A model generated the notes under the pieces. The model searched no databases and was not told the DNA's origin. It saw nothing but the letters and a program-made list of their open reading frames with translations. A stretch of 52,089 nt of DNA, from positions 1 through 52,089 of IMG/VR virus record IMGVR_UViG_3300041407_000207; one strand, given 5' to 3'. The translations under genes were made by a program, and so were the position numbers. The stretch comes from a virus. Below, in pieces: positions 10,186-48,059 of this stretch; the stretch's first letter is position 1; every line of letters starts with the position of its first letter.

Positions 10186-10193
10186 GTTAAAAT
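10186..10193 (+). promoter_or_regulatory. GTTAAAAT-class late promoter
   Basis: A perfect GTTAAAAT. It serves the portal and RNAP beta / beta' middle transcript. Confidence 0.75.
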
Positions 10194-11962: not shown

Positions 11963-12237
11963 ACGAAAAGGGAATGAATAAGCAGAAGGGCCAAGAGGGG
12001 AGTGCCAGCATGCCTGGTATTCTCCCGGCTGCTGCGGAAGACAATAACTACATTGCAGATAACTATACGGTTAAATATTTCCGTGGTGATCTGGATGAGC
12101 CTGGCGATCTTCTTGAGCTCCAGAGAGTTGAGACCGTAGGTCTAAAGGGTGATGAAATCGTTCTGTGTGATCGCCAGACGTATTCATTCGAGGGACGCTT
12201 CTTTGTCGTTCTTCGTTATTTCCAAAAACGAATCTAA
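11959..12237 (+). CDS. Unknown small protein between portal and RNAP (92 aa)
   Basis: The ATG overlaps the portal stop (ATGA). The first 30 residues are polar and low in complexity (MNEKGMNKQKGQEGSASMPG); the rest is a compact beta-rich part (YTVKYFRGDLDEPGDLLELQ ... YSFEGRFFVVLRYFQKRI). It ends 3 bases before the RNAP beta start. It could be a polymerase or portal partner; this is inference. Confidence 0.78.
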   Translation: MNEKGMNKQKGQEGSASMPGILPAAAEDNNYIADNYTVKYFRGDLDEPGDLLELQRVETVGLKGDEIVLCDRQTYSFEGRFFVVLRYFQKRI

Positions 12238-12240
12238 CCA

Positions 12241-15200
12241 ATGCCTAATACTCCGTACCCAATTTTCTCAGATCCAAAGTCTATCAACGAGAAGGCAGAC
12301 AAAGCGCTGGTGAAAGGTCTCACCTCGCATTTCCCAATCGAGAACAAGCATTACTCTTTGCAAATTGACGACGTGCATGTTGACCGTAAAGAATTCGATC
12401 AGAAAGATGAAAAGGAGGCGATTCTCAAATCCAAATCGCTGACCTACCCTATTCGTGGGACTCTTTCTCTGATCCACAAAGCAAGTGGTAATGTTGTGGA
12501 CCGGGAAAAGGATTTCCCACTTATGGACTCGTTCTTCCTTACCGGGAAACATACGATGCTCTATAAGGGTAACAACTACATTGTCGCAAACCAGCTCCAG
12601 TTGAGTCCGGGAGTATTTACTCGGACCAAAGAAAACGGTGAACTAGAAGCCCACTTCAACACTCAGAAAGGTCGTAGCTTCTCGCTGACTCTGGACCCGG
12701 AACATGAGTTGATCTATCTCAACGCAGATAAGTCTACATCTCGAGTGCTGGTAGCCCCGATCTTCACTGCGATCTTCAACATCTCTAGTAAGGAAGTTCT
12801 AAAGTACATCCCTGCAGAGCTGTGGGAAAGAAACGTCCAGGCTGCTCAAGGTCAAGAACAGAAAGCAATCAAGGCTCTCTACGGTCAACTTACTTCGAAA
12901 TATAAACAGGATAAAACCCTGTCTTACGAAGATATGATCGTTGCTTTGAGAGAGGCTTTCAACGGATCTACTCTGTCGGCTAAATCGACTGAGATTACTC
13001 TTGGTAAACCTTTTGAAAACATCACTCATGAAACGCTTCTCCGTGCGATGGCAAATATGGTTGCTGTACGTCGTGGTGACCGAGAAGAAGATAACCGAGA
13101 CTCGCTTCAGTTCAAGCGTGTGCAGAACCTTCCCGACTTCCTGGCTCGTCGTTTCGAAGCAGGTCGTGAACACGAATCCGTATCCAAAGTTAAAAGCAAA
13201 CTGACTTTCAACCTCGAACGCGTAGATCATACCAATCCGAAGATTCGTCAAGTAATTCCGTCTAAGCCTTTCAACAAGGTTTATCAGAACTACATCCTCG
13301 AATCGACTCTGGTGTCTACTCCGGAAGAAACCAATGCTATCGAATCAATTGAGAACGTGGGTAAGGTCACTGTACTCGGAGCTCAGGAAGGCGGTATCGC
13401 AAGCATTCGTGCTGTTCCTAAGTCCGCTCGTAACATTGATGCGTCTCACACAGGTATTCTTGACCCTAGCCGGACGCCTGAGTCTGATCATGCTGGTGTT
13501 GACCTTCGTTTTACTATTTCTGCTCATCGCGATGATTACGGAACTCTTTACTCGACAGTGGTCGATAATGCAGGGAAGAAGCATGTAATGTCCGTTCATG
13601 ACCTTATGACTTCAGTAGTGGGATTCCCTCACCAAGAAGATAAGGCTCGAGTTCAGGCCCAGGATCATGGTGTCCTCTCAGAAGTAGAACGTAGCAAAGT
13701 TCAGTACTGGTTCCAGAGTGGTAACAGCCTCTACACCGTAACCACCAACCTAGTACCGTTCCTGAACAGTAACCATCCAGGTCGTCTGACCATGGCCGGT
13801 AAGGCTATTCCTCAGGCACTGTCTCTGGTAGACCGCGAAGCCCCCTTGGTTCAGACCGTAACTTCTCCTAGCGGTGTTTCGTTTGTAAAATCGATTGCTC
13901 AGGTGTTCAGCACTAAGTCTCCAGTAGACGGTGTAGTTAAGAAAATCACTCCTACCGAAGTCCATATCGAGACCGCAGCTGGCACTACTCATAAGGTCAA
14001 TCTGGTTAAGAACCTTCCGTTCAACATGAAAGGTTTCCTTGATGATGAAGCCCCTCATGTAAAAGTAGGAGAGACTGTCAAGAAAGGACAAATGGTTGCG
14101 GAGAACAACTACACCAAAGACGGCGTTCTAGCCCTAGGCAAGAACCTTGAAGTGGCGTATATCCCCTACAAAGGCTTTAACCACGAAGACGGATTGGTCA
14201 TTTCCGAAGGTGCAGCTGCAGGACTTTCTAGTCACCACGCCTACAAGATTGACTACAACATCATGGATTATTCAGTGCTTCGTAAGTCGCTACTGAAACG
14301 TTATTTCCCAGGCAAGTTCACGGTTGATCAACTTTCTCAGCTAGATGAACTTGGCGTAGCCCAAGTGGGTGCCATTCTAAAACATGGCGACCCGGTATAT
14401 GCTGTACTTGAAAAAAGAGAACCTACCGCTGAAGATCGTATGCTGGGGCGTTTGCACAAAACACTCGTCAATCCTTACCGCGTCAATGCAGATACTTGGG
14501 GTTATGATGACCCTGCTGAGGTAGTAGACCGCCACGTTGATGGCAAAGAGATTCGTGTGATTCTTCGGGCGGTTAAGAAGCTTGAAGTCGGAGATAAGCT
14601 GACAGGTTCCCACGGTAACAAAGGTATCGTCTCGTTGATTCTTCCAGATGAAAAAATGCCTTACAACAAAGAAACTGGCAAGCCATATGATCTCCTGTTG
14701 AACCCGGCCTCTGTAACTAGCCGTGTAAACCTCGGCCAGCTAATGGAAACTGCTGCGGCGAAAATTGCTAAGAAGACTGGTACCCCGTACTTGGTACAAA
14801 ACTTCTCCAAGAAGTCTAACGTACAAAATCTCAGTGACGAGTTGAAGTCCCACGGCCTCAGCGACACCGACGTAGTGTTCGATCCAGACAATGGTAAGAC
14901 TTATCCTAAAGTCCTGGCCGGACCTCAGTACATGATGAAGCTGTACAAGACTACCGACCAAAACTTGTCTGCTCGTAACGTAGGCGGATACGACAACGTA
15001 CTTCAGCCTACCAAAGGTGGACATGAAGGTTCGAAGTCTATTGGTTACATGGAGTTCTTGGGTCTGCTTGGTTCTGACGCACGTCACAACCTTCAAGAAA
15101 TCGGTACTTCGAAATCCGAAGAGAACTCAGAGTACTGGACTAAGTTCTTGAGGGGCCAACCGCTTCCTAAGCCTAACACCACGTTTGCAACCAAGAAGTT

Positions 15201-15600
15201 CATTGACTATCTGCATGGCGCAGGAGTTAAGGTTACTCAGAGCGATACCCATATCACTGCTAGTCCTCTGATGGACCACGACATTCTCGGCATGAGCAAC
15301 GGAGAGATCAAAACTCCAGATATGATTGCTGCGAAGAACTTGGAGCCAGAAGATGGTGGTTTGTTCGACATGAGTGTTACTGGTGGTATTCGTGGACAGA
15401 AATGGGGCCACTACAAACTGGCTGAACCTGTCGTTAACCCTGTTTTTGAAGGTGCTGTAAAACACCTTACTGGTCTCACTTCTTCTGAGTTTGATAAACT
15501 CACTACAGGTGAATACGGACTTAAGAAAGTAGGAGATAAGGAATTCCACATCGTTACTCATGGCGATGACAGTAAAGTAATCAAAAAGGTGACGATGTGA
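12241..15600 (+). CDS. RNA polymerase beta subunit carrying a beta' N-terminal segment
   Basis: A 1119-residue RpoB-like subunit. Recognisable RpoB blocks: PLMDSFFLTGKHTMLYKG and NQLQLSPGVF near residues 95-125; YIPYKGFNHEDGLVISE near 640-657; GDKLTGSHGNKG at about 784-795; LLNPASVTSRVNLGQLME just after. The last 80 residues do not look like RpoB: GGLFDMSVTGGIRG and KWGHYKLAEPVVNP near 1038-1066 match the very start of RpoC (DGLF ... GHIELA.P), without the Cys of the beta' zinc finger. So beta is fused to the beta' N-terminus. The stop overlaps the next start as ATGTGA (GTG start). Confidence 0.9.
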   Translation: MPNTPYPIFSDPKSINEKADKALVKGLTSHFPIENKHYSLQIDDVHVDRKEFDQKDEKEAILKSKSLTYPIRGTLSLIHKASGNVVDREKDFPLMDSFFLTGKHTMLYKGNNYIVANQLQLSPGVFTRTKENGELEAHFNTQKGRSFSLTLDPEHELIYLNADKSTSRVLVAPIFTAIFNISSKEVLKYIPAELWERNVQAAQGQEQKAIKALYGQLTSKYKQDKTLSYEDMIVALREAFNGSTLSAKSTEITLGKPFENITHETLLRAMANMVAVRRGDREEDNRDSLQFKRVQNLPDFLARRFEAGREHESVSKVKSKLTFNLERVDHTNPKIRQVIPSKPFNKVYQNYILESTLVSTPEETNAIESIENVGKVTVLGAQEGGIASIRAVPKSARNIDASHTGILDPSRTPESDHAGVDLRFTISAHRDDYGTLYSTVVDNAGKKHVMSVHDLMTSVVGFPHQEDKARVQAQDHGVLSEVERSKVQYWFQSGNSLYTVTTNLVPFLNSNHPGRLTMAGKAIPQALSLVDREAPLVQTVTSPSGVSFVKSIAQVFSTKSPVDGVVKKITPTEVHIETAAGTTHKVNLVKNLPFNMKGFLDDEAPHVKVGETVKKGQMVAENNYTKDGVLALGKNLEVAYIPYKGFNHEDGLVISEGAAAGLSSHHAYKIDYNIMDYSVLRKSLLKRYFPGKFTVDQLSQLDELGVAQVGAILKHGDPVYAVLEKREPTAEDRMLGRLHKTLVNPYRVNADTWGYDDPAEVVDRHVDGKEIRVILRAVKKLEVGDKLTGSHGNKGIVSLILPDEKMPYNKETGKPYDLLLNPASVTSRVNLGQLMETAAAKIAKKTGTPYLVQNFSKKSNVQNLSDELKSHGLSDTDVVFDPDNGKTYPKVLAGPQYMMKLYKTTDQNLSARNVGGYDNVLQPTKGGHEGSKSIGYMEFLGLLGSDARHNLQEIGTSKSEENSEYWTKFLRGQPLPKPNTTFATKKFIDYLHGAGVKVTQSDTHITASPLMDHDILGMSNGEIKTPDMIAAKNLEPEDGGLFDMSVTGGIRGQKWGHYKLAEPVVNPVFEGAVKHLTGLTSSEFDKLTTGEYGLKKVGDKEFHIVTHGDDSKVIKKVTM

Positions 15601-16739
15601 CCGAACCAGTATTGGTAGGGGGAGCGGCTTTCGAAGCGCTCCTCGGAGCCATCGACGTAAATCAGAGTCTCAAGGATCATTCCCAAGAGGCTATCCATGC
15701 TACGTCTGTGGCTAAAAGAGACAAGGCCATTAAGAAGATCAAGTATCTTGCTGGTCTTCAGAAAATGGGTACTACCCCAGATAAAGCCTATGTGATTCGT
15801 AACGTTCCAGTAGTCCCACCGATTACTCGACCCGTTATGATTCAGGGGGGTGGACGTTTAGAATTCAGTGACGTAAACCAACTTTACCGAGATCACATGC
15901 TTGTGAATAACAGCATGAAAGAGTTGAAAGGTGTTTTGCCTGACGAAGCTTTGATCGGTGAACGCCGTGAAATGTATAACGGTTTGAAAGCAGTAGTCGG
16001 AGTAGGTGACCCTATCTCAGGTGCTTCTCGTGGCCGGAATCTCAAAGGTCTTTTGGTTCAGATCGCAGGCTCAGGCTCTCCAAAAGGAGGTCTGTTCCAC
16101 AGCAAGATCCTTAGCAAGAAGCAAGACTTCTCCGGTCGAGGTACTATCTACGCAGAGCCACGTCTAGGCTTCAACGAGATGGCTATCCCGCGAGATACTC
16201 TGTGGTCCATGTACAAGTTCCATATCATTCGTGACATGGCTCGACAAGGTCACTCTTACATCAATGCGGAGAAGGCTTACAACGATAGGAACGATTCTGC
16301 TACCGCGTCTTTTGGCAAGATCATCAAGGAAGTACCGATCCTCGCTAACCGTAACCCTACGCTCATGAAGTCGAACATCTCTGGATTCTTCCCGGTTCCA
16401 GTAGAAGGTAACTCCATCGGGGTAAACCCGTTGCACCTTCCGATGTTCGCAGGGGACTACGACGGTGACGCATTGTCCCTGTTTCTGCCTATGGGCCCGG
16501 CTGCGGTGAAAGAAGCTAGAGAGAAGCTCATGCCATCTAAACAGATTTACGACGCCCGTATGGGCTTTGGGGAGTCTCTGATAGCACCTGGTCACGAAGC
16601 CATTCTCGGTTCCGTTCACCTAACTGAGCCTGACAAAGATAAAAAGCCTCAGCACTTCGAATCTGAAGCACACGTTCTCCAAGCTCTCAAAGACGGTACG
16701 GTCGATGAGAATACTCCGATCACCATCGGTGCTAGGTAA
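15597..16739 (+). CDS. RNA polymerase beta' subunit, middle (catalytic) part
   Basis: This 380-residue piece holds the catalytic Mg motif. It starts at GTG 15597, with a 4-base overlap. The N-terminal part (GGAAFEALLGAID, then VPVVPPITRPVMIQGGGR and SDVNQLYRDHM) matches RpoC from about E. coli residue 180 on. GLFHSKILSKKQDFSGRG matches the switch/rudder region. GDYDGD at 286-291 gives the three Mg-binding Asp residues. It ends soon after the LGSVHL block, just before the RpoC segment that opens the 22855 gene. A strong terminator follows, so it is not read straight into the C-part. Confidence 0.92.
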   Translation: MTEPVLVGGAAFEALLGAIDVNQSLKDHSQEAIHATSVAKRDKAIKKIKYLAGLQKMGTTPDKAYVIRNVPVVPPITRPVMIQGGGRLEFSDVNQLYRDHMLVNNSMKELKGVLPDEALIGERREMYNGLKAVVGVGDPISGASRGRNLKGLLVQIAGSGSPKGGLFHSKILSKKQDFSGRGTIYAEPRLGFNEMAIPRDTLWSMYKFHIIRDMARQGHSYINAEKAYNDRNDSATASFGKIIKEVPILANRNPTLMKSNISGFFPVPVEGNSIGVNPLHLPMFAGDYDGDALSLFLPMGPAAVKEAREKLMPSKQIYDARMGFGESLIAPGHEAILGSVHLTEPDKDKKPQHFESEAHVLQALKDGTVDENTPITIGAR

Positions 16740-16742
16740 ACT

Positions 16743-16772
16743 AAAAAAGCCCCTTTGATTAGGGGCTTTCTT
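16743..16772. terminator. Bidirectional terminator
   Basis: AAGCCCCT/AGGGGCTT stem flanked by A-run and T-run. It ends the portal-RNAP transcript and the minus-strand cassette. Confidence 0.85.
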
Positions 16773-16784
16773 TTGATGCGTACT

Positions 16785-17345
16785 TTAGTTCAGATCGTTC
16801 CGAACTTTACAAAGTGCATCTTCAACAACTTTCTTTGAGAACTCGTTGATGCTTTCGCGATCTGGAACTTGATCGGGGTGCAACGCCAAACTCATTTTCT
16901 CCATGAAGTTTGGCAGAAGGCCGTCTTCAGAGATCATGCGCATCAAAGCACCTTTGCCGAACTTCAGGTCCATGGCGCCTTCAAGCTCTACTTTGCGTTT
17001 CAGGTTCTGCTGAAGGGCTTCGATCAGTTCTGGACTCAGATTATCAAAGTCGTCAAACTTGCCTTCGCTGAATGCAGCTGTGAAAGCGTTCATGGCGGCA
17101 ATCGTATCCTCCAAATTTGCGGACTCCATCTCTGTGGCAGCAGTCTTCTGGAACCGCTCCATGATGCGATAGCCACGGGCAGAGAGCACGACCAGCTCAT
17201 CCAGGATAGAGGTCAGATTACGATCAGAGCCTTTTTCCATTTCTACCATTGTGCAACCATGCAGATCACGAAGCTCAGGATGCATCTCAGCAATTTCAGA
17301 CAGCATTGTCAGGCAAGCGTTTTGCAGTACTGGAGAAATGTTCAT
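16785..17345 (-). CDS. Unknown helical protein (186 aa)
   Basis: Entirely helical and acidic, e.g. LEDTIAAMNAFTAAFSEG and FDDFDNLSPELIEALQQN. Own promoter at 17401-17408. It is the first of a series of similar-sized helical proteins on this strand (17469, 17961, 18350, 18974), which may be distant relatives; the similarity is of type, not clear sequence. Function unknown. Confidence 0.8.
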   Translation of the reverse strand: MNISPVLQNACLTMLSEIAEMHPELRDLHGCTMVEMEKGSDRNLTSILDELVVLSARGYRIMERFQKTAATEMESANLEDTIAAMNAFTAAFSEGKFDDFDNLSPELIEALQQNLKRKVELEGAMDLKFGKGALMRMISEDGLLPNFMEKMSLALHPDQVPDRESINEFSKKVVEDALCKVRNDLN

Positions 17346-17400
17346 ATCAAAGGTCCTTTTAGGTATTTAGAATGTGAAGATATTGTTCTTCTCTACTATT

Positions 17401-17408
17401 CTTATACC
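17401..17408 (-). promoter_or_regulatory. GGTATAAG-class promoter
   Basis: GGTATAAG, then AATAGT, then A. It serves the 16785-17345 gene. Confidence 0.72.
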
Positions 17409-17435
17409 GGTAACGAACCTACCGAATTGAAACTA

Positions 17436-17464
17436 AAAAGCCAGGACCGAAGTCGAGGCTTTTA
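17436..17464 (-). terminator. Intrinsic terminator
   Basis: AAAAGCC/GGCTTTT stem-loop directly after the 17469-17840 gene and before the next promoter. Confidence 0.7.
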
Positions 17465-17468
17465 GGTG

Positions 17469-17840
17469 TTACTTGAAAGAATTTATTCGCGGAAGAAGGA
17501 TTGAGTACTTACCCCACAAAGGAGACTCAGACATATCCTTCATGTCTGCATACTTTTTAGCCAAGGCTTGAGTGACCATTGAGCATTTATCCAGTCTAGA
17601 CAGTCGAACTATTTTATCCAGATCAACTATTTCATCAGGAGTGAGAGTACTTAGATCACCCAGAGTTTTCATTAGGAACTCTTGCCAAATAGTCATGGTG
17701 CGGAAAGACTCTTCCGAACTGACGGAATCATTCAAATCTTTCATGAAAAGCCCGACAATTCTATTGAGGGTGTCTTCTTCCTCTAGAAGTCTACGGAAGA
17801 AACCAGCAGCAGCCTCATCAACCTTCACAGAATAAGTCAT
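17469..17840 (-). CDS. Unknown helical protein (123 aa)
   Basis: The start ATG at 17840 lies 7 bases after AAGGA; the longer frame would reach into the promoter. The sequence is helical and acidic (DEAAAGFFRRLLEEEDTLNR, then TIWQEFLMKTLGDLSTLTPD). No domain recognised. It has its own promoter and terminator. Confidence 0.78.
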   Translation of the reverse strand: MTYSVKVDEAAAGFFRRLLEEEDTLNRIVGLFMKDLNDSVSSEESFRTMTIWQEFLMKTLGDLSTLTPDEIVDLDKIVRLSRLDKCSMVTQALAKKYADMKDMSESPLWGKYSILLPRINSFK

Positions 17841-17895
17841 TTTGAAATCCTTGTAGTATTTATGAACAATAGATGTATTGTTCTTTTCTACTATT

Positions 17896-17903
17896 CTTAT
17901 ACC
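17896..17903 (-). promoter_or_regulatory. GGTATAAG-class promoter
   Basis: GGTATAAG, then AATAGT, then A. It serves the 17469-17840 gene. Confidence 0.72.
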
Positions 17904-17924
17904 TGGAACCACCTCTCTAAATTT

Positions 17925-17955
17925 AAAAAGAAAGGCCCTAGAATCAGGACCTTAC
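17925..17955 (-). terminator. Intrinsic terminator
   Basis: An AAGG(T)CC...GG(G)CCTT stem followed on the minus strand by TCTTTTT, after the 17961-18341 gene. Confidence 0.65.
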
Positions 17956-17960
17956 TATTA

Positions 17961-18341
17961 CTACAGAGGAGCAAGACCTCGGATCAGGACTGGACCCGTA
18001 GGTATCTCCAAAGGCTTCTCTTCCAGAGAACGCATATGCTCGTAGCATTCATGCTTGAGAATAGTCTCGATACTGAAACCCTTCAACTTCCCCAACAACG
18101 CATCATCAAGGATGTCCATTGATTTTTCATCAAGCAACGGAATCCGATCTGCGATAGGCTCCATGCGGAACTTGTTGAATTCTTCGCAGAGACGCATTAC
18201 TTCGTCAGCATTATTTCGAGGTTTTGTAAGAACAACCTGGAAATTACCGACGAACTCACGAAGACGAATTCGGTTGTTCAGCATGAACGTGAAGTATTCA
18301 CTGGCAAGAGTTTCGAGGTATTCAGCAGTATGGTCCGTCAT
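17961..18341 (-). CDS. Unknown helical protein (126 aa)
   Basis: Starts MTDHTAEYLETLASEYFTFM; helical, with a charged middle (NADEVMRLCEEFNKFRM). It lies 8 bases after the 18350-18850 gene and shares its promoter. No family recognised. Confidence 0.78.
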   Translation of the reverse strand: MTDHTAEYLETLASEYFTFMLNNRIRLREFVGNFQVVLTKPRNNADEVMRLCEEFNKFRMEPIADRIPLLDEKSMDILDDALLGKLKGFSIETILKHECYEHMRSLEEKPLEIPTGPVLIRGLAPL

Positions 18342-18349
18342 AGCAATGT

Positions 18350-18850
18350 TTATTCCTGAGTTACGAGAGGGACTTCCGGAGTATGTTGCAGTGCTGCCAT
18401 TAGCGCCTGCGTCTCGTCTCGCTCGTTGATGAGAGAAGAGAGTTCATCGAGCAGATCCAGTTTCTTGATGCAGGACATCATCGGATCTGGTCCGAACAGA
18501 GAAATCATTTCAGCTTCCGTACCGGTGCTCATGTGAGACAGATGATCCGAAACAAGTTCTTTGATATCATCTGGAACTTCCGTCTGAACACCTGAAAGAA
18601 TGTCATACAGATACTGAGGCTTGTTGTTCTCATCCTCCCAGTTCACTGCGAGAAAGGCTTCCGCGATCATCGCCGCTGATTTCTCAGAAGACTCGATAAT
18701 CATTGGGAAAAGATTTCGAACAGCACTGACGGGGTCTTCGTCGGACATAGCCACCATGAACGTAGAGTTCAGGGAGTCCATGCTTCCTCGAGTTGTTTTC
18801 AGATTTTCGAGGAGGGTTTTTGCCGCCAGCAACAAATCGGAAGTAAGCAT
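18350..18850 (-). CDS. Unknown helical protein (166 aa)
   Basis: Starts MLTSDLLLAAKTLLENLKTT, and is acidic and helical throughout, ending VPLVTQE. First gene of a two-gene unit with 17961-18341. Function unknown. Confidence 0.78.
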   Translation of the reverse strand: MLTSDLLLAAKTLLENLKTTRGSMDSLNSTFMVAMSDEDPVSAVRNLFPMIIESSEKSAAMIAEAFLAVNWEDENNKPQYLYDILSGVQTEVPDDIKELVSDHLSHMSTGTEAEMISLFGPDPMMSCIKKLDLLDELSSLINERDETQALMAALQHTPEVPLVTQE

Positions 18851-18912
18851 AGGGTCTAGACCTTTAAGTATTTTTGGTTTTAAACAAGGGGTGCGATTCC
18901 CCTTACATAGTA

Positions 18913-18920
18913 CTTATACC
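18913..18920 (-). promoter_or_regulatory. GGTATAAG-class promoter
   Basis: GGTATAAG, then TACTAT, then G. It serves the 18850-17961 pair. Confidence 0.72.
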
Positions 18921-18940
18921 GTTCTGACCTTTGCGAATGT

Positions 18941-18968
18941 AAAAAAGGCCCCAGAAGAATAGGGGCCT
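18941..18968 (-). terminator. Intrinsic terminator
   Basis: AGGCCCC/GGGGCCT stem followed on the minus strand by TTTTTT. It ends the 18974-19417 gene. Confidence 0.75.
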
Positions 18969-18973
18969 ATTTG

Positions 18974-19417
18974 TCATACTCTAATTTCACCATCTCGCAC
19001 AACTCCAACCATGGTCAACGTCTCGTCCCTTATAGCTCCTGAATTAATCAGAATCTCGTTTATATTTTCAACTGCGTTTCTTAGCGAAGGCAAGGATCTC
19101 ATGTAGTCCATGTCGAGAACCATTAACTCTAATTTTGCTTTCGTAATATCCGGATGTTTTATAGGAGCTTGATTCTGGATAGTCTGAGCAAATTCTTGCA
19201 AGCTCTTGTACTGGAGCTTCAGTATCGAGTTTGTTATCAAGTACGACTCTATTACGGTAAGGTACTTCTTTGATATTGCTGAGTAAGTATCCGGAGTTGC
19301 TTCGTCCAACTCTTTTCGGATATCCATTACCTCCTTCATTTTCTCATGAAGAATTGTGTAGTCAGCGATGGTAGCTCTTAACAGAGCTCCAAGTTTTGCA
19401 ATATTTACAAGATCCAT
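18974..19417 (-). CDS. Unknown helical protein (147 aa)
   Basis: The ATG at 19417 follows GAGGGAG; the longer frame to 19477 has a low-quality N-terminus that runs up to the promoter. The protein is long-helical (ADYTILHEKMKEVMDIRKEL, then LQYKSLQEFAQTIQN), suggesting coiled-coil interaction. Function unknown. Confidence 0.78.
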   Translation of the reverse strand: MDLVNIAKLGALLRATIADYTILHEKMKEVMDIRKELDEATPDTYSAISKKYLTVIESYLITNSILKLQYKSLQEFAQTIQNQAPIKHPDITKAKLELMVLDMDYMRSLPSLRNAVENINEILINSGAIRDETLTMVGVVRDGEIRV

Positions 19418-19481
19418 TTTTCTCCCTCGATGTGCGTAAGATACGGCGTCTGGTGGACTCCGTGACTTTGTATACATAATA

Positions 19482-19489
19482 CTTATACC
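19482..19489 (-). promoter_or_regulatory. GGTATAAG-class promoter
   Basis: GGTATAAG, then TATTAT, then G. It serves the 18974-19417 gene. Confidence 0.72.
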
Positions 19490-19520
19490 CGGTTAACTAC
19501 TTGACTTTTATAAGCATACA

Positions 19521-19528
19521 GTTAACCT
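19521..19528 (+). promoter_or_regulatory. Degenerate GTTAAAAT-class promoter (GTTAACCT)
   Basis: GTTAACCT followed by exactly six bases and then the ATG of the endonuclease gene. It has two mismatches to the box, but the spacing is that of the other leaderless genes. Confidence 0.5.
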
Positions 19529-19534
19529 CTGCGA

Positions 19535-20860
19535 ATGGATCATTCTGAATTTGAAACAAAGTCCATTCTCAGACATGGGCACCGGTACGACTACTCTCGA
19601 GTTCAGATTACGAATAATCGGACCAAGGTAGAGATTGTCTGTCAAAAACACGGTCCGTTTCTACAGGCCCCTGACCATCATATGAGAGGTCGGGGATGTC
19701 CAATTTGTTCGCGAGAATCACGAGTGTGGAGTAAGCCTTTGACTTCTGAAGAGTTCTTTACTAAGGCAACTGAAATCCACAAAGGTTTCTATGACTACTC
19801 TTCCTCTGTATTTAAAACTTCTTCCCATAAGATAAGCATAGTTTGCGCCATCCATGGAGAATTCTCTACTTTGGCCAGAAAGCATCTTCATGAAAAAAGA
19901 GGATGTCCTTCTTGTGGTAAGGTGAAAACTCGATATGCACAAAGCGTAATGTATCAGGACTTCTTTGATAGAGCCGTAGACAGACATGGCTTGGCATATT
20001 CCTATGCGGATACTTCGCTTAGATTCCTCTCAGATGATATCGACGTAGTCTGCCCCTCTCACGGCCCCTTTACGTTAGTGGCCTCAGATCATGTTCATGG
20101 CCGTGGATGTCCGAAGTGTAGACCTCAAGGATCTTGCCCGGAAAATGAGTTGGCTGACTTTATTCATAATCTAGGATTCGATATCGTAAGGAATACTAGG
20201 AAGGTGATACCGCCACTCGAGCTAGACGTCGTTTTGCCGAGAGAACGAATTGCGTTTGAGTTTAATGGTATTTTCTGGCATTCAGAGCAGGCCGGGAAGG
20301 CATTTCAGTACCATCAGAATAAAACCTTGATGGCTCAACGTTCTGGATACCGACTGTTCCATGTTTATGAATCCGATTGGGATATAAATAGAAACTCAGT
20401 TGAAGAGAAGATCTGCAGAATTCTGTCTAGAACTCCTTGCCCAACCCTAACCGGTGCCTACCCAATAGAGGAATACAACGGAGACTACCATTTGATTCTT
20501 CGTGGAAATCCCATTGCAGGATTCCGAGTGAAGGATCGTATCGCCAAAGATTCTTGGAGCATGTACGGGCTAGAGCCAATACGAATGCTACTAACCATGT
20601 CAGGAATAGATAAGATACAGACAAGTCTTGACTGGCCAGAGTACACCCTGGAGGATTTTGATAAGTTCGGATTTAAGAAGTATATGAACGTCAGACCTGG
20701 ACGTCTCTACTTCGACAAGAAAACCCTGAGAAGACTAAAAGAAAAGCCCAGAGAGTATCCGGGCTTAGAATTTCTTTCAGTGGTGGACTCTGGGGCCATC
20801 ATTTGGGATGTAGTCCAGAATCGGATTGAACAAGACGTAGTTCATGACGTTACCGATTGA
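19535..20860 (+). CDS. Vsr-like (EDxHD) homing endonuclease with zinc-finger repeats
   Basis: A 441-residue free-standing endonuclease. The N-terminal 200 residues hold three repeats of the same Cys/His module (IVCQKHGPF...GRGCPICSRE; IVCAIHGEF...RGCPSCGKV; VVCPSHGPF...GRGCPKCRPQ), likely treble-clef DNA-binding fingers. Residues about 204-255 carry ENELADFI, then LELDVVLPRERIAFEFNGIF and WHSE, the PD-(D/E)xK fold of Vsr-like enzymes, the EDxHD family of phage homing endonucleases. It cuts DNA to spread its own gene. It lies between the beta' middle and C-terminal genes and has no Shine-Dalgarno; the ATG sits at the predicted transcription start. Confidence 0.88.
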   Translation: MDHSEFETKSILRHGHRYDYSRVQITNNRTKVEIVCQKHGPFLQAPDHHMRGRGCPICSRESRVWSKPLTSEEFFTKATEIHKGFYDYSSSVFKTSSHKISIVCAIHGEFSTLARKHLHEKRGCPSCGKVKTRYAQSVMYQDFFDRAVDRHGLAYSYADTSLRFLSDDIDVVCPSHGPFTLVASDHVHGRGCPKCRPQGSCPENELADFIHNLGFDIVRNTRKVIPPLELDVVLPRERIAFEFNGIFWHSEQAGKAFQYHQNKTLMAQRSGYRLFHVYESDWDINRNSVEEKICRILSRTPCPTLTGAYPIEEYNGDYHLILRGNPIAGFRVKDRIAKDSWSMYGLEPIRMLLTMSGIDKIQTSLDWPEYTLEDFDKFGFKKYMNVRPGRLYFDKKTLRRLKEKPREYPGLEFLSVVDSGAIIWDVVQNRIEQDVVHDVTD

Positions 20861-21190
20861 GCTCTTACTGTTGTCACCTAGTTCCTGATCGATGAACTCC
20901 AGGAGAACAGCATTCCGGGTTACGATCATCAACGGATCTTCGGGACTCAACTTGTAGTCATACCCGAGTTCAATAGCGTTGCTCATCGAGAACGACGCTA
21001 GATTCCTCAGGGATTTAATCTCATCCCACAACGCTGTTACTTGTAGATCACAACCCTCAACATCTTCAGGGTAGATCCTTGTTCCTTCCCGGTGAGCATC
21101 CAACTCGTTTTTCATTTCTTCTACAGCGGCTTCTACACAGCGCTGCATGGTGAGCCCGGATCTACCTGCAGGTAATGAGAATTGCAACAT
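20777..21190 (-). CDS. Unknown protein, 3' end overlapping the endonuclease gene (137 aa)
   Basis: The ATG at 21190 follows AAGGAGC, with a promoter box at 21221-21228. It is a helical protein (QRCVEAAVEEMKNELDAHRE). The last 84 bases overlap, antisense, the 3' end of the endonuclease gene, and no terminator separates them. The C-terminus (NPILDYIPNDGPRVHH) may therefore have been supplied by the inserted DNA. Function unknown. Confidence 0.72.
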   Translation of the reverse strand: MLQFSLPAGRSGLTMQRCVEAAVEEMKNELDAHREGTRIYPEDVEGCDLQVTALWDEIKSLRNLASFSMSNAIELGYDYKLSPEDPLMIVTRNAVLLEFIDQELGDNSKSSIGNVMNYVLFNPILDYIPNDGPRVHH

Positions 21191-21220
21191 GGCGTAAGCT
21201 CCTTCTGGCTATCTACCTAT

Positions 21221-21228
21221 CTTATACC
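21221..21228 (-). promoter_or_regulatory. GGTATAAG-class promoter
   Basis: GGTATAAG, then ATAGGT, then A. It serves the 20777-21190 gene. Confidence 0.7.
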
Positions 21229-21242
21229 ACACCGCATTCGCC

Positions 21243-21271
21243 TAAAAGAGAGGGCCACCACCCCCTCTTTC
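21243..21271 (-). terminator. Intrinsic terminator
   Basis: An AAAGAG(G)GG...CC(C)TCTCTTT stem after the 21283-21531 gene, with a T-rich minus-strand exit. Confidence 0.6.
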
Positions 21272-21282
21272 ATTGCGACCCC

Positions 21283-21531
21283 TTACGAGGTTGCAGTTTC
21301 TTTTACGGAAGCCACCGAACCACGCAGGATGTCGATCTCTTCTTTCAAAGCAGCCTTGGCCGCTTCTTCACCCTTTTTCACGCCCTTGCGATTGCCGAGC
21401 AGATAGCCCAGGCCTGCGCCAATAGCGAGCATTGCACCGCCTACCGCGAACGCAATGGTATTGCTGTTGGTGTTTTTAGCAGCAGCTTCTTCGATTGCGG
21501 CAACTGCGGTCAGGTCTTGTTCAGCGATCAT
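21283..21531 (-). CDS. Small membrane protein with Gly zipper, paralog A (82 aa)
   Basis: One hydrophobic helix with small-residue spacing (FAVGGAMLAIGAGLGYLLGN) at about residues 28-47, then a Lys/Glu-rich coiled-coil-like tail (KKGEEAAKAALKEEIDILRG). It shares the G-x-G-x-G motif with the next three genes. It lies 31 bases after the 21563-21778 gene, probably in one transcript. Predicted inner-membrane, tail in the cytoplasm; role unknown. Confidence 0.78.
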   Translation of the reverse strand: MIAEQDLTAVAAIEEAAAKNTNSNTIAFAVGGAMLAIGAGLGYLLGNRKGVKKGEEAAKAALKEEIDILRGSVASVKETATS

Positions 21532-21562
21532 GATGAATCTCCAGGTATTAGTTTTTTGAGAA

Positions 21563-21778
21563 TTACGGTTGAGTGTTGCGACGGTTGTCCCGTTCTCGTG
21601 AACGGGTATTTGGGGAACGCCTTTCTACTTGAAGATCCCGAGCACTTTTAAGAGACGCTTTGGTCCAGCCAACTGCGAATCCCAAACCGATCAGTGCTCC
21701 TCCGATCAGTGCGTACAGGGTGCCCTCACCGGCACTCATAGGAGTGCTCGATTCCAGATGTTCTAACGGAGCTTTCAT
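21563..21778 (-). CDS. Small membrane protein with Gly zipper, paralog B (71 aa)
   Basis: A single membrane helix (GTLYALIGGALIGLGFAVGW) at about residues 19-38, then a basic Arg-rich tail (RRSPNTRSRERDNRRNTQP) expected to stay in the cytoplasm. Own promoter at 21817-21824. Role unknown. Confidence 0.75.
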   Translation of the reverse strand: MKAPLEHLESSTPMSAGEGTLYALIGGALIGLGFAVGWTKASLKSARDLQVERRSPNTRSRERDNRRNTQP

Positions 21779-21816
21779 TGGGAACCCTCCTACAAGTGTG
21801 TGCCTATCTCAATTTA

Positions 21817-21824
21817 GTTATACC
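21817..21824 (-). promoter_or_regulatory. GGTATAAC-class promoter
   Basis: GGTATAAC, then TAAATT, then G. It serves paralogs B and A. Confidence 0.65.
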
Positions 21825-21846
21825 CAAGCTGAGATAGCGAATTGAG

Positions 21847-21870
21847 AGGGCCCTTGGGGAATCGGGCCCT
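21847..21870 (-). terminator. Hairpin, possible terminator
   Basis: AGGGCCC/GGGCCCT stem after the 21877-22089 gene; the T-run is weak. Confidence 0.45.
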
Positions 21871-21876
21871 ATGGTG

Positions 21877-22089
21877 TTACTTTGCAACAGGTTGACGTTT
21901 TGCACGTTCCATCTTTGCAGCTGCTTCACCCTTGGCACCCAGGATGAAACCTACGCCTGCACCGATGGCCATGAACGCCGCGCCGATTAAGAATGCTGCA
22001 CCGGCATAATTGCCAGCAGCTTCGGACCGAGTTTCAGGACCTTGGTGATGGTGATACGTTACGTGGTCAGCACGAATTGGTGAATCCAT
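21877..22089 (-). CDS. Small membrane protein with Gly zipper, paralog C (70 aa)
   Basis: The ATG at 22089 follows AAGGAA; the longer frame has no ribosome site. The protein has a His-rich start (VTYHHHQG), then SEAAGNYAGAAFLIGAAFMA leading into a Gly-zipper helix IGAGVGFILG, and a basic tail. The NYAGAAFL block is shared with paralog D. Promoter at 22150-22157, inside the end of the paralog D gene. Confidence 0.78.
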   Translation of the reverse strand: MDSPIRADHVTYHHHQGPETRSEAAGNYAGAAFLIGAAFMAIGAGVGFILGAKGEAAAKMERAKRQPVAK

Positions 22090-22149
22090 GACAGTATTCC
22101 TTGGGAAGGAGTGGGGGAAGTAGTTCAAACAGTTTTCTTCTGCACTACT

Positions 22150-22157
22150 CTTATACC
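22150..22157 (-). promoter_or_regulatory. GGTATAAG-class promoter
   Basis: GGTATAAG, then AGTAGT, then G. It serves the 21877-22089 gene. Confidence 0.72.
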
Positions 22158-22714
22158 GGTTTTACTGGTTCAGAATTGACAATTTCATCAACGGTAATGA
22201 GGTTTACACCGCCTTTGATGTGGAGAGCAGTTTTAGATTTGATCTTTATGTTCTCCAAACCCATGAACATTTCCTGGGTCATCGTGGAAGGCCTTTCGAC
22301 CAAGAAGTTTTCCGGGATTGCAGACCCGACCTTTACTTCTTCTTTATACGACTTTTTGACGTAGTAGTACTTCGTCTCTTTCGACGTGACTTGATCGACG
22401 ACTGCACCCTTGCTTCCAAGGATGTCGCTCATCGTACGCTTCAAGTCTTCGATGGTGGACTCGACAACATTTTCTGTGGAATTTCCTGCAGGGCTTTTAC
22501 CGGCAGACTTCCGCAACTTGTCGAGCAGGTCATCCGTGAAATTGGATGTCGAAGCAGGCTTACGCAGTTTGCGGATTGATTCAGAGATCATCCCTGCGCC
22601 AATGCCCACACAGAGAACTGCCATACCAACTAGGAAGGCAGCCCCGGCGTAGTTTTTGAAAGCTTCGGACGTCGTTTCATTGGCGTCCATTACGTGAATA
22701 GTTTCTACTACCAT
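22151..22714 (-). CDS. Membrane-anchored protein, paralog D with long soluble domain (187 aa)
   Basis: The ATG at 22714 follows GAGGAGA. Residues about 15-45 repeat the paralog C block (SEAFKNYAGAAFLVGMAVLC, then VGIGAGM). A soluble part of about 140 residues follows, helical first (STENVVESTIEDLKRTMSDI) and then beta-rich (TKYYYVKKSYKEEVKVGSAI). Unlike its shorter relatives it has a real cytoplasmic or periplasmic domain. Role unknown. Confidence 0.78.
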   Translation of the reverse strand: MVVETIHVMDANETTSEAFKNYAGAAFLVGMAVLCVGIGAGMISESIRKLRKPASTSNFTDDLLDKLRKSAGKSPAGNSTENVVESTIEDLKRTMSDILGSKGAVVDQVTSKETKYYYVKKSYKEEVKVGSAIPENFLVERPSTMTQEMFMGLENIKIKSKTALHIKGGVNLITVDEIVNSEPVKPV

Positions 22715-22769
22715 GAGGTGTCTCCTCGGAGATGTAAGATAGTTCATATAGGGTTTACATTACACAGTA

Positions 22770-22777
22770 CTTATACC
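22770..22777 (-). promoter_or_regulatory. GGTATAAG-class promoter
   Basis: GGTATAAG, then TACTGT, then G. It serves the 22151-22714 gene and is back-to-back with the late promoter at 22806. Confidence 0.72.
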
Positions 22778-22805
22778 CGAACCATACGGCCCCTATTGAC
22801 CCTCA

Positions 22806-22813
22806 GTTAAAAT
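22806..22813 (+). promoter_or_regulatory. GTTAAAAT-class late promoter
   Basis: A perfect GTTAAAAT, six bases, then A at 22820. It serves the beta' C-part. Confidence 0.75.
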
Positions 22814-22854
22814 CCCCAGATACCTAACTCACTACTACCAGGCCGATACCTTTC

Positions 22855-24675
22855 ATGGCAGACACTAAATACACCACTCCCGGATCAGTAATGATCAAGC
22901 ACATGCTTCCTATCGGAGCTCGGGAAAAGTACGACCTTCACCGCGTCCTGGATAAGGGTGGAGTTCAAGGTCTAATTCAATTGCTCATCAAGAACGAAGG
23001 ATCGGACTTTGAAGTCATCAATGACCTTGCACGTCTGTTCTTCGGTAAGGCTACGGAGATCGGTGCATCAACTCCGCTGTCTGACTATATAAACGATTCC
23101 TCAGAACGAGCCGCTCTGCTTGGAGAATTCGAGCACAAAGTATCAGAAATTCTAAAAAGCAAAGTTTCAACTCAAGAAAAGTCAAACGAATTGAGTAACT
23201 TGGCTGCGGATATGTCTGGAAAGATCAGTAAGCAAAACATCAACTACCTTGCTGAACGTGGATCTACTGCTGCGAAGATGGCTCAGACGGGAGCTCGGGG
23301 TAACCCTTCCCAACTTGCTTGGGGTACATCGTCTCCCCTCATGGCTGCTGACGTACGAGGTATGCCGGTACCAATCGCGGTAATGCACTCCTTTGCGGAA
23401 GGTCTTACTCCCGGCGAATACCTCGCCATGTCATACGCTGGACGAGCCTCCACAGTAGCCGCACAGCTCTCTACCTCCCTACCCGGTGCCCTGTTTAAGA
23501 AGTTGACTCCGAACCTCTACCATGAGGTTATTACGGTCCCTGACTGCGGTACTCACAACGGTATCCTAATCCCATCGACTGATAAAAAAGCACTCGTTGG
23601 TAGATTCGAAGCCGGAACTAATCGGTTCATTGATGAAGCATACCAACGAGAGCTAGAAGAGTCCCATAAACAGGTCAAGGTACGAAGCACTCTTACTTGT
23701 GAAGCTAAGAAAGGTGTTTGTCAGAAATGCTACGGCCAAGCTTCAGACGGCAAGCTGGTAACCATCGGTACCAACGTAGGCGTAATTGCTTCACAGTCGG
23801 TATCGGAACGTCTCACTCAGGCGATGCTAGGTACTAAGCACTCCGGGGGTGTTGCAGGTAAAAAGCGAAATGCTTATGAAGAAGCAAACAACCTCCTGTT
23901 GAACCCATCCGATAACTTCCAAGACGAAGCCACTATTTCAAAATTGAATGGCAAAGTTACTGACATTCGACAGACTGCCCTGAAGGATCACGAGGTTTAC
24001 ATCAACGGTGTTAGCCACTTCGTGAGTCGTGAACAAGACCTTTCGGTTAAGAAAGGTGATGACGTTCTGTCCGGAGGAGTAATGTCCACCGGTACAGTTA
24101 ACCCTCGTAAACTCGTTGCTCTTCAAGGAGTTGGTGCAGGCCGTCTGTACATGGCTAAGAAACTTCGAGATATCTACGGCTCAGGTCTAGATACTCGTCA
24201 CTTCGATTTGATTGCCCGCAACATGATCAAATACGTCAAGGTTAACGATCCGGGCGATACCGGGTTCATGCCGGGACAAGAGGTTGACATCAACGCTATT
24301 CAGCATCACTTGAAGAATAGCAGTGAAACAGTCCCGATATCCTCTGCGGCGGGTCGTACTCTTTCACACGGTATCTTGGAAGAAACTCCAGGAACTTACC
24401 TGACGCAGAACCACGTTGATAGCTTGGCTCTGAGAGGCATCTCTTCCGTGAAAGTAAGTAACTCTGGACTAAAGGTAACCCCGATGGTTCCAGGTCTTCA
24501 GTCTGCAAAACTTCTCGATCCTAACTGGCTATCCAAACTTGCATTCAACAAGATTAGACAGACGATTCAGGAATCCGGAGCTATCGGTGCTTCTTCTGAA
24601 ATTCACGGCACGGACCCTATTACTCCGTATGTACTGGGTCGAGATTTTGGCCAAGGTAACCCTGGAGAATACTAA
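22855..24675 (+). CDS. RNA polymerase beta' subunit, C-terminal part
   Basis: 606 residues. It begins with the RpoC block TTPGSVMIKHMLP (compare TTVGR in E. coli). It then shows FAEGLTPGEYLAMSYAGRAS (bridge-helix/trigger-loop region; compare FREGL..QYF...GARK), DCGTHNGI, and the zinc/jaw-side block TCEAKKGVCQKCYGQASDGK. IGTNVGVIASQSVSERLTQA and TKHSGG match the conserved C-terminal GVIAAQSIGEP.TQ...FH.GG. With the 15597 gene it rebuilds a full beta' core. It has its own late promoter 6 kb away from the first part, and is followed with one-base overlap (TAATG) by the next gene. Confidence 0.93.
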   Translation: MADTKYTTPGSVMIKHMLPIGAREKYDLHRVLDKGGVQGLIQLLIKNEGSDFEVINDLARLFFGKATEIGASTPLSDYINDSSERAALLGEFEHKVSEILKSKVSTQEKSNELSNLAADMSGKISKQNINYLAERGSTAAKMAQTGARGNPSQLAWGTSSPLMAADVRGMPVPIAVMHSFAEGLTPGEYLAMSYAGRASTVAAQLSTSLPGALFKKLTPNLYHEVITVPDCGTHNGILIPSTDKKALVGRFEAGTNRFIDEAYQRELEESHKQVKVRSTLTCEAKKGVCQKCYGQASDGKLVTIGTNVGVIASQSVSERLTQAMLGTKHSGGVAGKKRNAYEEANNLLLNPSDNFQDEATISKLNGKVTDIRQTALKDHEVYINGVSHFVSREQDLSVKKGDDVLSGGVMSTGTVNPRKLVALQGVGAGRLYMAKKLRDIYGSGLDTRHFDLIARNMIKYVKVNDPGDTGFMPGQEVDINAIQHHLKNSSETVPISSAAGRTLSHGILEETPGTYLTQNHVDSLALRGISSVKVSNSGLKVTPMVPGLQSAKLLDPNWLSKLAFNKIRQTIQESGAIGASSEIHGTDPITPYVLGRDFGQGNPGEY

Positions 24676-47830: not shown

Positions 47831-48059
47831 AAAAACCACTCCGAACAGCTCCGGTATTTTTAAGGTAAATAACGCCTACGCGAATTACCCCCACTTGCTT
47901 CTCCAGCGGAATGAACCCCGCATTGTTTGGAGTTCCCAGCACGACTGCGTATTTAACGTAATCTTGCTCCTCGGGGCGGAAACACATAAGGCCCTTGTGA
48001 GGCCTCAGGCATTTAAGGACATCCCGGAATGAGGCTTCAGTACTTTGTCGAATTGCCAT
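47577..48059 (-). CDS. Unknown protein overlapping the RT gene (160 aa)
   Basis: A strong AGGAGG lies 7 bases before the ATG at 48059. A basic N-terminal part (MAIRQSTEASFRDVLKCLRP) is followed by a beta-rich domain (KYAVVLGTPNNAGFIPLEKQ, then GVIRVGVIYLKNTGAVRSGF) and an acidic helical tail (SIEPRALEAAESQELVDADV). The last 250 bases are also read in another frame as the RT N-terminus. It could be the effector or partner of the RT; this is inference. Confidence 0.75.
   Translation of the reverse strand: MAIRQSTEASFRDVLKCLRPHKGLMCFRPEEQDYVKYAVVLGTPNNAGFIPLEKQVGVIRVGVIYLKNTGAVRSGFYAVYPRDLYRRRIDARPVRRLSIEQATLLIGGNLEHLGLPDVTESELNASIEPRALEAAESQELVDADVCFQEQIRALQASEDS

Follow-up and report, generated by a model that had tools for sequence, protein, structure and literature searches.

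A phage RNA polymerase in three pieces, with beta joined to the beta' N-terminus and beta' otherwise cut in two

Helicobacter and Wolbachia carry natural rpoB-rpoC fusions, in which beta and a whole beta', zinc finger included, form one chain with no later cuts. In cyanobacteria and plastids beta' is divided between rpoC1 and rpoC2; the zinc finger is retained and, unlike in the locus described here, there is no fusion to beta.

The virion and non-virion RNA polymerases (RNAPs) of phages phiKZ and AR9 are split as well: they lack alpha and omega, their beta' is cut after the catalytic barrel, and the virion form is packaged (PMC7598289). Jumbo phages of this type have no sigma factor (PMC7824862). 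Whether multi-chain phage RNAPs are a split cellular-type enzyme or primitively multi-piece is disputed (PMC7598289 against PMC7824862). The crAss-like phage RNAP has both barrel domains in one chain and is virion-packaged; it is extremely divergent from all known RNAPs (PMC7886860), whereas RNAPs of the present type align throughout. The mReC RNAPs (Weinheimer & Aylward 2020, PMC7481178) are, like the present one, bacterial-type enzymes of tailed phages and align clearly with cellular RNAP; neither fusion nor splitting was described for them. That survey required a beta' with NADxDGD and a length of 800 aa or more, and so would have missed the RNAP reported here, with its 380 aa piece and AGDYDGD.

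The closest described RNAPs are those of the cultured Salmonella phage Arash (Gp206 and Gp216; PMC10585845) and of Vibrio phages D69, D148 and D181, with 50-56% identity to ours. They share the beta-beta' fusion, the absence of the zinc finger, the cut before the TTPG block, the upstream portal gene, a homologue of the sigma-like gp10 and both promoter-like motifs described below. In them one of the cuts is absent, and a single chain of about 1525 aa holds beta together with beta' up to about residue 565; the clade of our phage has an extra cut at beta' ~165. Gp206 is recorded as "subunit beta" and its D69 counterpart as "hypothetical protein", and the accessible part of the Arash paper contains no mention of a beta-beta' fusion (PMC10585845). 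Fusion and the cut at ~565 are thus common to cultured phages whose records note neither.

The stretch of DNA analysed (52,089 nucleotides, hereafter the window) belongs to a linear contig of 116 kb, possibly incomplete, from a tailed phage with a tail sheath. The large terminase matched PF03237 (L016:7917-9611, 24.7 bits against a cut-off of 22; PF05876 scored slightly higher). For the major capsid protein, PF07068 gave no match at E 0.1; PHROG 2522, a major head protein family, matched with E=4.7e-14. The window also contains a reverse transcriptase, for which a template/variable repeat pair was looked for and none was found. The features of the RNAP locus are as follows.

10186..10193, plus strand: late-type motif GTTAAAAT, 37 nt upstream of the portal gene, which places it ahead of the ORF1-ORF2 operon too (YTAAAMT statistics)
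10223..11962, plus strand: portal protein gene, first in the operon leading into ORF1 (PHROG 16240 portal, E=1.7e-8)
11959..12237, plus strand: small ORF between portal gene and ORF1 (ORF list)
12241..15600, plus strand: ORF1, beta and beta' N-terminus, beta' ~20-165 without 66-103 (sequence matches, AlphaFold model)
15247..15597, plus strand: beta' N-terminal segment in ORF1, first zinc finger deleted (hhalign, Pfam)
15597..15600, plus strand: GTGA, in which the ORF2 start overlaps the ORF1 stop; AAGG upstream (sequence)
15597..16739, plus strand: ORF2, beta' ~166-565, carrying the clamp helices plus the catalytic double-psi barrel and its AGDYDGD (sequence matches, model)
16740..22854, no single strand: 6.1 kb cassette separating ORF2 from ORF3, its genes mostly on the minus strand (ORF list)
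17401, 17896, 18913, 19482, 21221 and 22150, minus strand: six of the seven GGTATAAG motifs in the cassette (whole-genome motif scan)
19535..20860, plus strand: free-standing homing-endonuclease-like gene within the cassette, treble clef and Vsr/MTES_1575 nuclease (PHROG, Pfam)
22770..22777, minus strand: the remaining cassette GGTATAAG motif (whole-genome motif scan)
22806..22813, plus strand: late-type motif GTTAAAAT, 49 nt before ORF3 (YTAAAMT statistics)
22855..24675, plus strand: ORF3, beta' C-terminal half from TTPG, with bridge helix, trigger loop and second zinc site (Pfam RNA_pol_Rpb1_5, E=2e-20)

The portal protein is 52% identical to Arash portal gp204, and Arash gp205 occupies the same position as the small ORF.

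The computed subunit make-up is that of a complete RpoB in ORF1 (1119 aa), followed by RpoC ~20-165, from which the first zinc finger is missing. The RpoB match runs along the full length (best PDB chain, E=1.7e-66). The last ~115 residues matched RpoC ~20-126 in profile-profile alignment against bacterial RpoC N-termini (hhalign P=8e-8), while ten other RpoC windows used as control gave P of 0.15-0.9; a 32-residue gap falls exactly over the zinc finger cysteines C70/C72/C85/C88. The Pfam match of this segment to RNA_pol_Rpb1_1 was weak (E=0.0057). The AlphaFold model of ORF1 had a pLDDT of 83.3 and a pTM of 0.74, and its beta part aligned with bacterial beta chains with Z of 32-35. A preliminary description had proposed that ORF1 ends with the opening block of RpoC lacking its Cys cluster, and had named the RpoC likeness of the tail beforehand as a test; that likeness was borne out, but the proposed end at GHYKLAEPV was not, since beta' reaches ~165.

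ORF2 (380 aa) matched RpoC with E=2.4e-42 and covers residues ~166-565, the catalytic aspartates included; its model aligned over its whole length with E. coli beta' 174-553. ORF3 matched the C-terminal half of RpoC (E=1.5e-43) and starts at the TTPG block, E. coli ~566-572. Both agree with the earlier limits, from about RpoC 180 to past GDYDGD and from a TTPGR-like block onwards. Judged by its letters, the GTGA overlap with AAGG upstream would be suited to coupled translation of ORF1 and ORF2.

The catalytic residues are all kept: D460/D462/D464 in beta', K1065/K1073/R1106/E813/D814 in beta, including the barrel lysine pair K1065 and K1073, R780/T790 of the bridge helix and H936 of the trigger loop. 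The second zinc site, C814/C888/C895/C898, is also present. The absence of the zinc-binding domain, noted earlier, is borne out. Conserved residues were substituted at N458 (to A), M932 (to L) and R933 (to G), in cultured Arash as well. The first zinc finger was absent from all 12 phage rows checked and is missing in uncut relatives too; its loss is clade-wide and predates both cuts. Comparison with an 88%-identical relative (L002) gave dN/dS of 0.05 for ORF1, 0.06 for ORF2 and 0.07 for ORF3; purifying selection on each of them is strong.

No match to alpha (PF01193) was found in the phage's own record or in 16 relatives (17 records, possibly incomplete), nor to omega (PF01192) in its own record. 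Host subunits could still join the enzyme.

ORF1 and ORF2 are likewise separate genes in 25 further contigs. The loci fell into three architectures: three-piece loci (n=15, with 11 more in which ORF1 and ORF2 are apart and ORF3 lies outside the locus); two-piece loci, with ORF1 and ORF2 fused and ORF3 apart (n=7, including Arash and D69); and one-chain beta-beta' loci of ~2000 residues (about 41, of which 40 intact and one, L091, with an apparent frameshift). The one-chain RNAPs, all from uncultured phages (L046, L054-L092), are 27-36% identical to ours and have the same joint, zinc-finger loss and sigma-like partner; they differ in being uncut, often with intein-like inserts. None was found whole in a 50,697-record phage collection, and no prophage or host relatives in a search of 84,980-species genomes. 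A literature search for one-chain phage beta-beta' other than crAss-like, which did not cover subscription papers, found nothing relevant.

In the tree rooted on bacteria, the three-piece clade (support 99/96) is nested in a two-piece grade, itself nested in the one-chain forms. This gives the order one chain, two chains, three chains. Since beta' is uncut in bacteria, both cuts are derived, however the fused forms branch among themselves. The split had been described as unlike those of phiKZ-type phages and cyanobacteria, although with its second cut close to the cyanobacterial one. The difference from the phiKZ-type splits holds: beta is whole in ORF1 and joined to beta', while in phiKZ/AR9 it is itself cut and not joined. 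The cut at ~565 lies near the jumbo-phage and the rpoC1-rpoC2 cuts, about 25 residues before the latter by alignment. Only the cut at ~165 and the combination are therefore new.

A sigma-like protein is encoded in 16 of 16 records of phages with such RNAPs and in this genome (70909-71604, genome coordinates). It was found here with the Arash gp10 protein as query; a PF04542 search of the genome gave no sigma. The gp10-type match is weak outside region 3, and beta' R275, which contacts sigma in E. coli, is not conserved in the phage RNAP. The gene adjoins virion genes both in Arash and here.

Two strand-specific motifs were computed. Of the 83 plus-strand genes, 10 have YTAAAMT 20-75 nt upstream, against a mean of 2.2 for letter-permuted motifs; these are late genes, the RNAP genes among them. 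The motif precedes ORF3 in most relatives, and Arash has GCTAAAAT at the position matching our pre-portal GTTAAAAT. TGGTATAAG is the stronger motif, is confined to one strand in every genome carrying it, and points to minus-strand genes. Nearly all genome hits of GGTATAAG (20 of 21) are in minus orientation, and most lie 25-65 nt upstream of a minus-strand gene (mean in mono-shuffles 3.9); TGGTATAAGNA had 132 hits in 11 records, none with hits on both strands. GGTATAAG was also considered as late promoter of ORF1 and ORF3 and rejected, its orientation and genome-wide distribution assigning it to minus-strand genes. The earlier suggestion of late promoters before both RNAP portions has statistical support from YTAAAMT only; the stronger TGGTATAAG faces the other way. 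TGGTATAAG resembles an extended -10 element, with G in place of the last T of the sigma-70 -10 hexamer, and could by this likeness be read by host RNAP. Around the RNAP genes, matches to the sigma-70 promoter consensus were no commoner than in shuffles.

In the Arash virion proteome (PMC10585845) 116 proteins are listed. Gp206 had the highest number of spectra (3516), Gp216 (1210) exceeded most structural proteins, and the sigma-like Gp10 had 467. Ribonucleotide reductase and primase were also detected, so the preparation held non-structural proteins, and the authors there leave open that enzymes in the virions are carry-over. From this abundance it is inferred that phages of this kind probably carry in their own machinery for transcription when they infect a cell. 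By analogy, and with no direct data on this phage, the RNAP of the window is probably packaged.

The reading we favour, at a probability of about 0.82, is a complete working RNAP, derived from a one-chain ancestor cut twice, probably packaged and with a sigma-like partner. It is unlikely, yet cannot be set aside, that the enzyme is instead a non-virion RNAP made in the cell for late genes only, the Arash signal being carry-over and host RNAP reading the early genes from extended -10 promoters. ORF1-3 do sit among late-type genes, the Arash particle list has many non-structural enzymes, and TGGTATAAG has its likeness to the extended -10 element; but carry-over fits poorly with the rank of Gp206 and Gp216 in that list, the G stands where a sigma-70 hexamer ends in T, and the sigma-like gene lies beside virion genes in both phages.

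The remaining alternatives concern the pieces themselves. A stepwise joining of separate pieces, with the fully fused form youngest, is improbable: a review (PMC7824862) argues for primitively multi-piece phage RNAPs, but the three-piece forms make up a nested clade with good support, beta' of the outgroup is in one piece, and the beta-beta' joint common to all forms is hard to explain unless fusion preceded the cuts. The three substitutions and the zinc finger loss might suggest that ORF1-3 have decayed, or been domesticated, into a remnant that no longer acts as a polymerase; the low dN/dS, the intact catalytic residues and the same departures in cultured Arash make this very improbable. Sequencing or assembly errors, or a programmed frameshift for which the four-base overlap of ORF1 and ORF2 could speak, are hardly credible. 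The same cuts recur in about 25 independent contigs, which excludes an assembly error, and ORF1 and ORF2 lie up to 3.5 kb apart in relatives, so that they are separate genes with no frameshift; the ORF2-ORF3 gap ranges from 0 to 9.3 kb.

Under the favoured reading of a one-chain ancestor cut twice, that ancestor would have had beta and beta' joined in a chain of ~2000 residues, its beta' N-terminal zinc finger already gone. A cut at beta' ~565, just past the catalytic barrel domain, would have given two chains, and a later one at ~165, in the clamp linker, three; this linker is longer in two-chain relatives. The likely cutting agents, by inference, are group I introns, inteins and homing endonucleases in the RNAP gene. 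Vibrio phage D181 has a group I intron with endonuclease in that gene, absent from the 95-99% identical D69, and the one-chain forms have in-frame intein-like inserts; such elements are a plausible cause of the cuts. The endonuclease-like gene of the cassette matched PHROG 559 (E=2e-52) and the homing endonuclease family PHROG 3339 (E=1.6e-29), with Pfam DUF4379 above and Vsr below the cut-off. No intron or intein is left at either cut within the window, and a search against Rfam gave no RNA family, introns included, for the window or for five relatives.

ORF1, ORF2 and ORF3 should assemble as one catalytic core without phage alpha, an inferred assembly in which part of what alpha does for assembly may fall to the permanent covalent joint of beta with the beta' N-terminus. 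The core would be expressed alongside structural genes from late promoters. After injection it probably would, with the sigma-like protein, transcribe minus-strand genes from TGGTATAAG promoters; sigma and promoter use are likewise inferred.

We propose only tentatively, at slightly below even odds, that a broad and mostly uncultured phage lineage carries a self-sufficient RNAP without alpha, born as one chain, packaged with a sigma-like factor of its own and served by its own TGGTATAAG promoters, whose gene was cut stepwise by mobile self-splicing elements, first into two and then into three working chains, with all stages extant. Within a single lineage there is a directional series, fusion followed by two cuts, with relatives still at each earlier stage; of the nearly identical phages D181 and D69, only the first has an intron in its RNAP gene. 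In this lineage one can study the assembly of a beta-beta' core that has neither alpha nor the clamp zinc finger, and with cultured Arash and the Vibrio phages, packaging, sigma use and promoters are directly testable.

The source virus record comprises 116,089 bases, of which the window is the initial 52 kb. The RNA polymerase genes of the window, and a free-standing gene lying between two of them, are the following:

12241-15600, plus strand: ORF1, 1119 aa; RpoB match end to end, with RpoC sequence at the C-terminus; best PDB chain 1.7e-66
15597-16739, plus strand: ORF2, 380 aa; GTG start overlapping the ORF1 TGA; RpoC ~166-565, 2.4e-42
19535-20860: homing-endonuclease-like gene, between ORF2 and ORF3
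22855-24675, plus strand: ORF3, 606 aa; rest of RpoC from the TTPG block on, 1.5e-43

Pfam domains were found across ORF1-ORF3 in the same order as the PDB-chain matches, and alignment placed the cut sites at 165/166 and 565/566 of E. coli beta'. All active-site residues checked were conserved in the alignment; so were R780 and T790 of the bridge helix, H936 of the trigger loop and the second zinc site. Three substitutions were detected: N458 to A and M932 to L, which also occur in Salmonella phage Arash and in most of the close relatives, and R933 to G, a position at which those phages have G or S. Compared with the 88%-identical relative L002, dN/dS was 0.047 (ORF1), 0.060 (ORF2) and 0.070 (ORF3). 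The ORF1 model (pLDDT 83.3) matched bacterial beta chains over its beta part with Z 32-35 and rmsd 2.5-4.2. The ORF2 model (pLDDT 74.7) aligned end to end with beta' 174-553, but the rmsd was high, at ~20 A: the predicted order of the parts is correct, and their relative placement in the isolated piece is unreliable. Together, ORF1-ORF3 are a real and conserved bacterial-type RNA polymerase, which is probably active, activity itself being inferred.

The preliminary description had proposed an RpoC-like stretch of ~80 residues at the end of ORF1 and the absence of the beta' N-terminal zinc finger; both points were borne out. A profile of the ORF1 tail, built from 19 three-piece relatives, was compared with five bacterial RpoC N-termini and matched RpoC 18-126 with P = 8e-8, while ten other RpoC windows gave 0.15-0.9. 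The alignment contained a single gap, of 32 residues, exactly over the zinc finger, and in uncut relatives the same segment continues unbroken into the beta' core. The fusion of beta to the beta' N-terminus is thus real. The zinc finger was absent from all phage rows aligned, one-piece forms included, and its loss was therefore assigned to the fusion stage and not to the cutting.

Scanning of viral contigs and cultured phages recovered three architectures. The window is among 15 loci with three separate pieces; 11 further loci have ORF1 and ORF2 apart, with ORF3 beyond the stretch examined. ORF1 and ORF2 are fused in 7 loci, including Arash (gp206, gp216) and Vibrio phage D69, and beta and beta' share one frame in 40. 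An additional locus, L091, was tallied as one-piece, not as three-piece, with an apparent frameshift. Several contigs are near-duplicates, so that independent lineages are fewer than loci. In the three-piece group the ORF1-ORF2 spacing ranged from overlap up to 3.5 kb and the ORF2-ORF3 spacing from 0 to 9.3 kb, which makes them separate genes.

The core regions were concatenated (1349 and 1195 columns) for tree building, with bacterial RpoB/RpoC as the root. The three-piece forms were a single clade (support 99/96 in the careful mixture-model tree) nested inside a two-piece grade, itself inside the one-piece forms, among which branching was weakly supported. Regardless of that branching, the fusion is a derived state, and so are the two cuts, since bacterial beta' is uncut and beta separate.

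Other interrupted genes were observed. In Yersinia phage YerA41 (L099:7134-10357), a distant lineage with separate beta, beta' is likewise split in two after the catalytic barrel, a site that seems prone to splitting. Vibrio phage 150E35-1 (L024:8488-13290) has beta' interrupted near the catalytic motif, at ORF2 model position ~282/283 (intron or true split), unlike Vibrio phage 1.031.O (L022), where it is whole. A lone ORF2-like gene (L094:9983-11134; 33% identity), possibly an independent split, lies on a 200 kb contig with no other polymerase pieces within 10 kb. Several "phage" records with ordinary bacterial rpoB/rpoC (e.g. OR844998, OR846602, MT836236) look like host contamination.

Mobile introns have been proposed as a source of phage polymerase splits (PMC7598289). 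In Vibrio phage D181 the beta part is interrupted by a group I intron with a homing endonuclease gene (L100:2964-3244; 100.7 bits, gathering 50); D69 lacks this intron, the flanks being 95-99% identical. Many one-piece forms contain inserts that keep the reading frame, ~340-540 residues long and located at beta GNKG or beta' GD^TMT; their termini (C...GN^C, HN^T) resemble those of inteins. From these elements and the homing-endonuclease-like gene of the window it is inferred that mobile elements may have caused these particular cuts. In the alignment the first-cut stretch is longer in two-piece than in one-piece relatives, as expected for a tolerant linker. Intein-like inserts occupied at least four different sites of one-chain enzymes, including the catalytic NADFDGD (beta' GD^TMT); the carriers were L047, L048, L057-L062, L066, L073, L076, L077 and L089. 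In the L048 ORF (4510-11991) the motif adjoining the insert reads NADFNGD, Asn replacing the middle catalytic Asp (sequencing error or real change).

No alpha-type domain (PF01193) was found in the window's record or in 16 RNA polymerase-phage records of 152-210 kb. Each of the 16 (16/16) encoded a single homologue of Arash gp10, a protein with a sigma-factor annotation. Two partner genes were located in the window's genome:

70909-71604: gp10 homologue, 41% identity, E=1.8e-55; Sigma70_r3 30.9 bits, cut-off 25.3
110483-111871: SNF2-type helicase, relative of Arash gp217

Elsewhere, the window contains a minus-strand reverse transcriptase gene (46727-47839; RVT_1 E=1e-17, PHROG 2825), for which no template/variable repeat pair was found in the record. 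No tRNA genes were found in the window; five (Gly, Arg, Ser, Ser, Met) lie in the record's second half (L018:4673-4746, L019:2096-3236).

The motif GGTATAAG occurred 21 times in the window's genome (mono-shuffle mean 3.9), 20 of the 21 oriented to serve minus-strand genes, mostly 25-65 nt ahead of the start. It preceded 16/73 minus-strand and 0/83 plus-strand genes, the Arash figures being 20/167 and 1/91. TGGTATAAGNA was confined to a single strand in each record having any (e.g. 0/23, 0/24, 14/0, 12/0, 0/15; reversed control 0-1) and was rare or missing in most one-piece records. YTAAAMT was found upstream of 10/83 plus-strand genes in the window's genome (letter-permuted mean 2.2) and of 12/91 in Arash (mean 1.5); it is a less clean signal, because it also precedes 8/167 Arash minus-strand genes (mean 2.3). 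Its presence ahead of the portal-ORF1-ORF2 operon and of ORF3, in the window and most relatives, supports the late promoters suggested earlier for both polymerase portions. In L003, L004, L006 and L043 the late motif CTAAAATAG stands only ~10-13 nt upstream of the ORF3 start, which suggests very short or no leaders on some late mRNAs. The last base of TGGTATAAG is G, whereas that of the sigma-70 -10 hexamer is T, which argues mildly against the host enzyme as reader.

In the Arash paper, Gp206 is annotated as the beta subunit (PMC10585845); it is actually beta plus the initial ~40% of beta', a fusion unrecognised in the database records examined. The window enzyme is a new variant of this Arash-type enzyme, and, judged against the openly accessible literature, there appears to be no precedent for the first cut, the three-piece form or the evolutionary series. 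The same paper reports 3516 spectra for Gp206 in particles, the highest of all proteins, 1210 for Gp216, 1148 for the helicase Gp217 and 467 for the sigma Gp10; the list holds 116 proteins, and its authors allow that the enzymes might be carry-over (PMC10585845). By inference, a virion enzyme with a gp10-type sigma would read TGGTATAAG.
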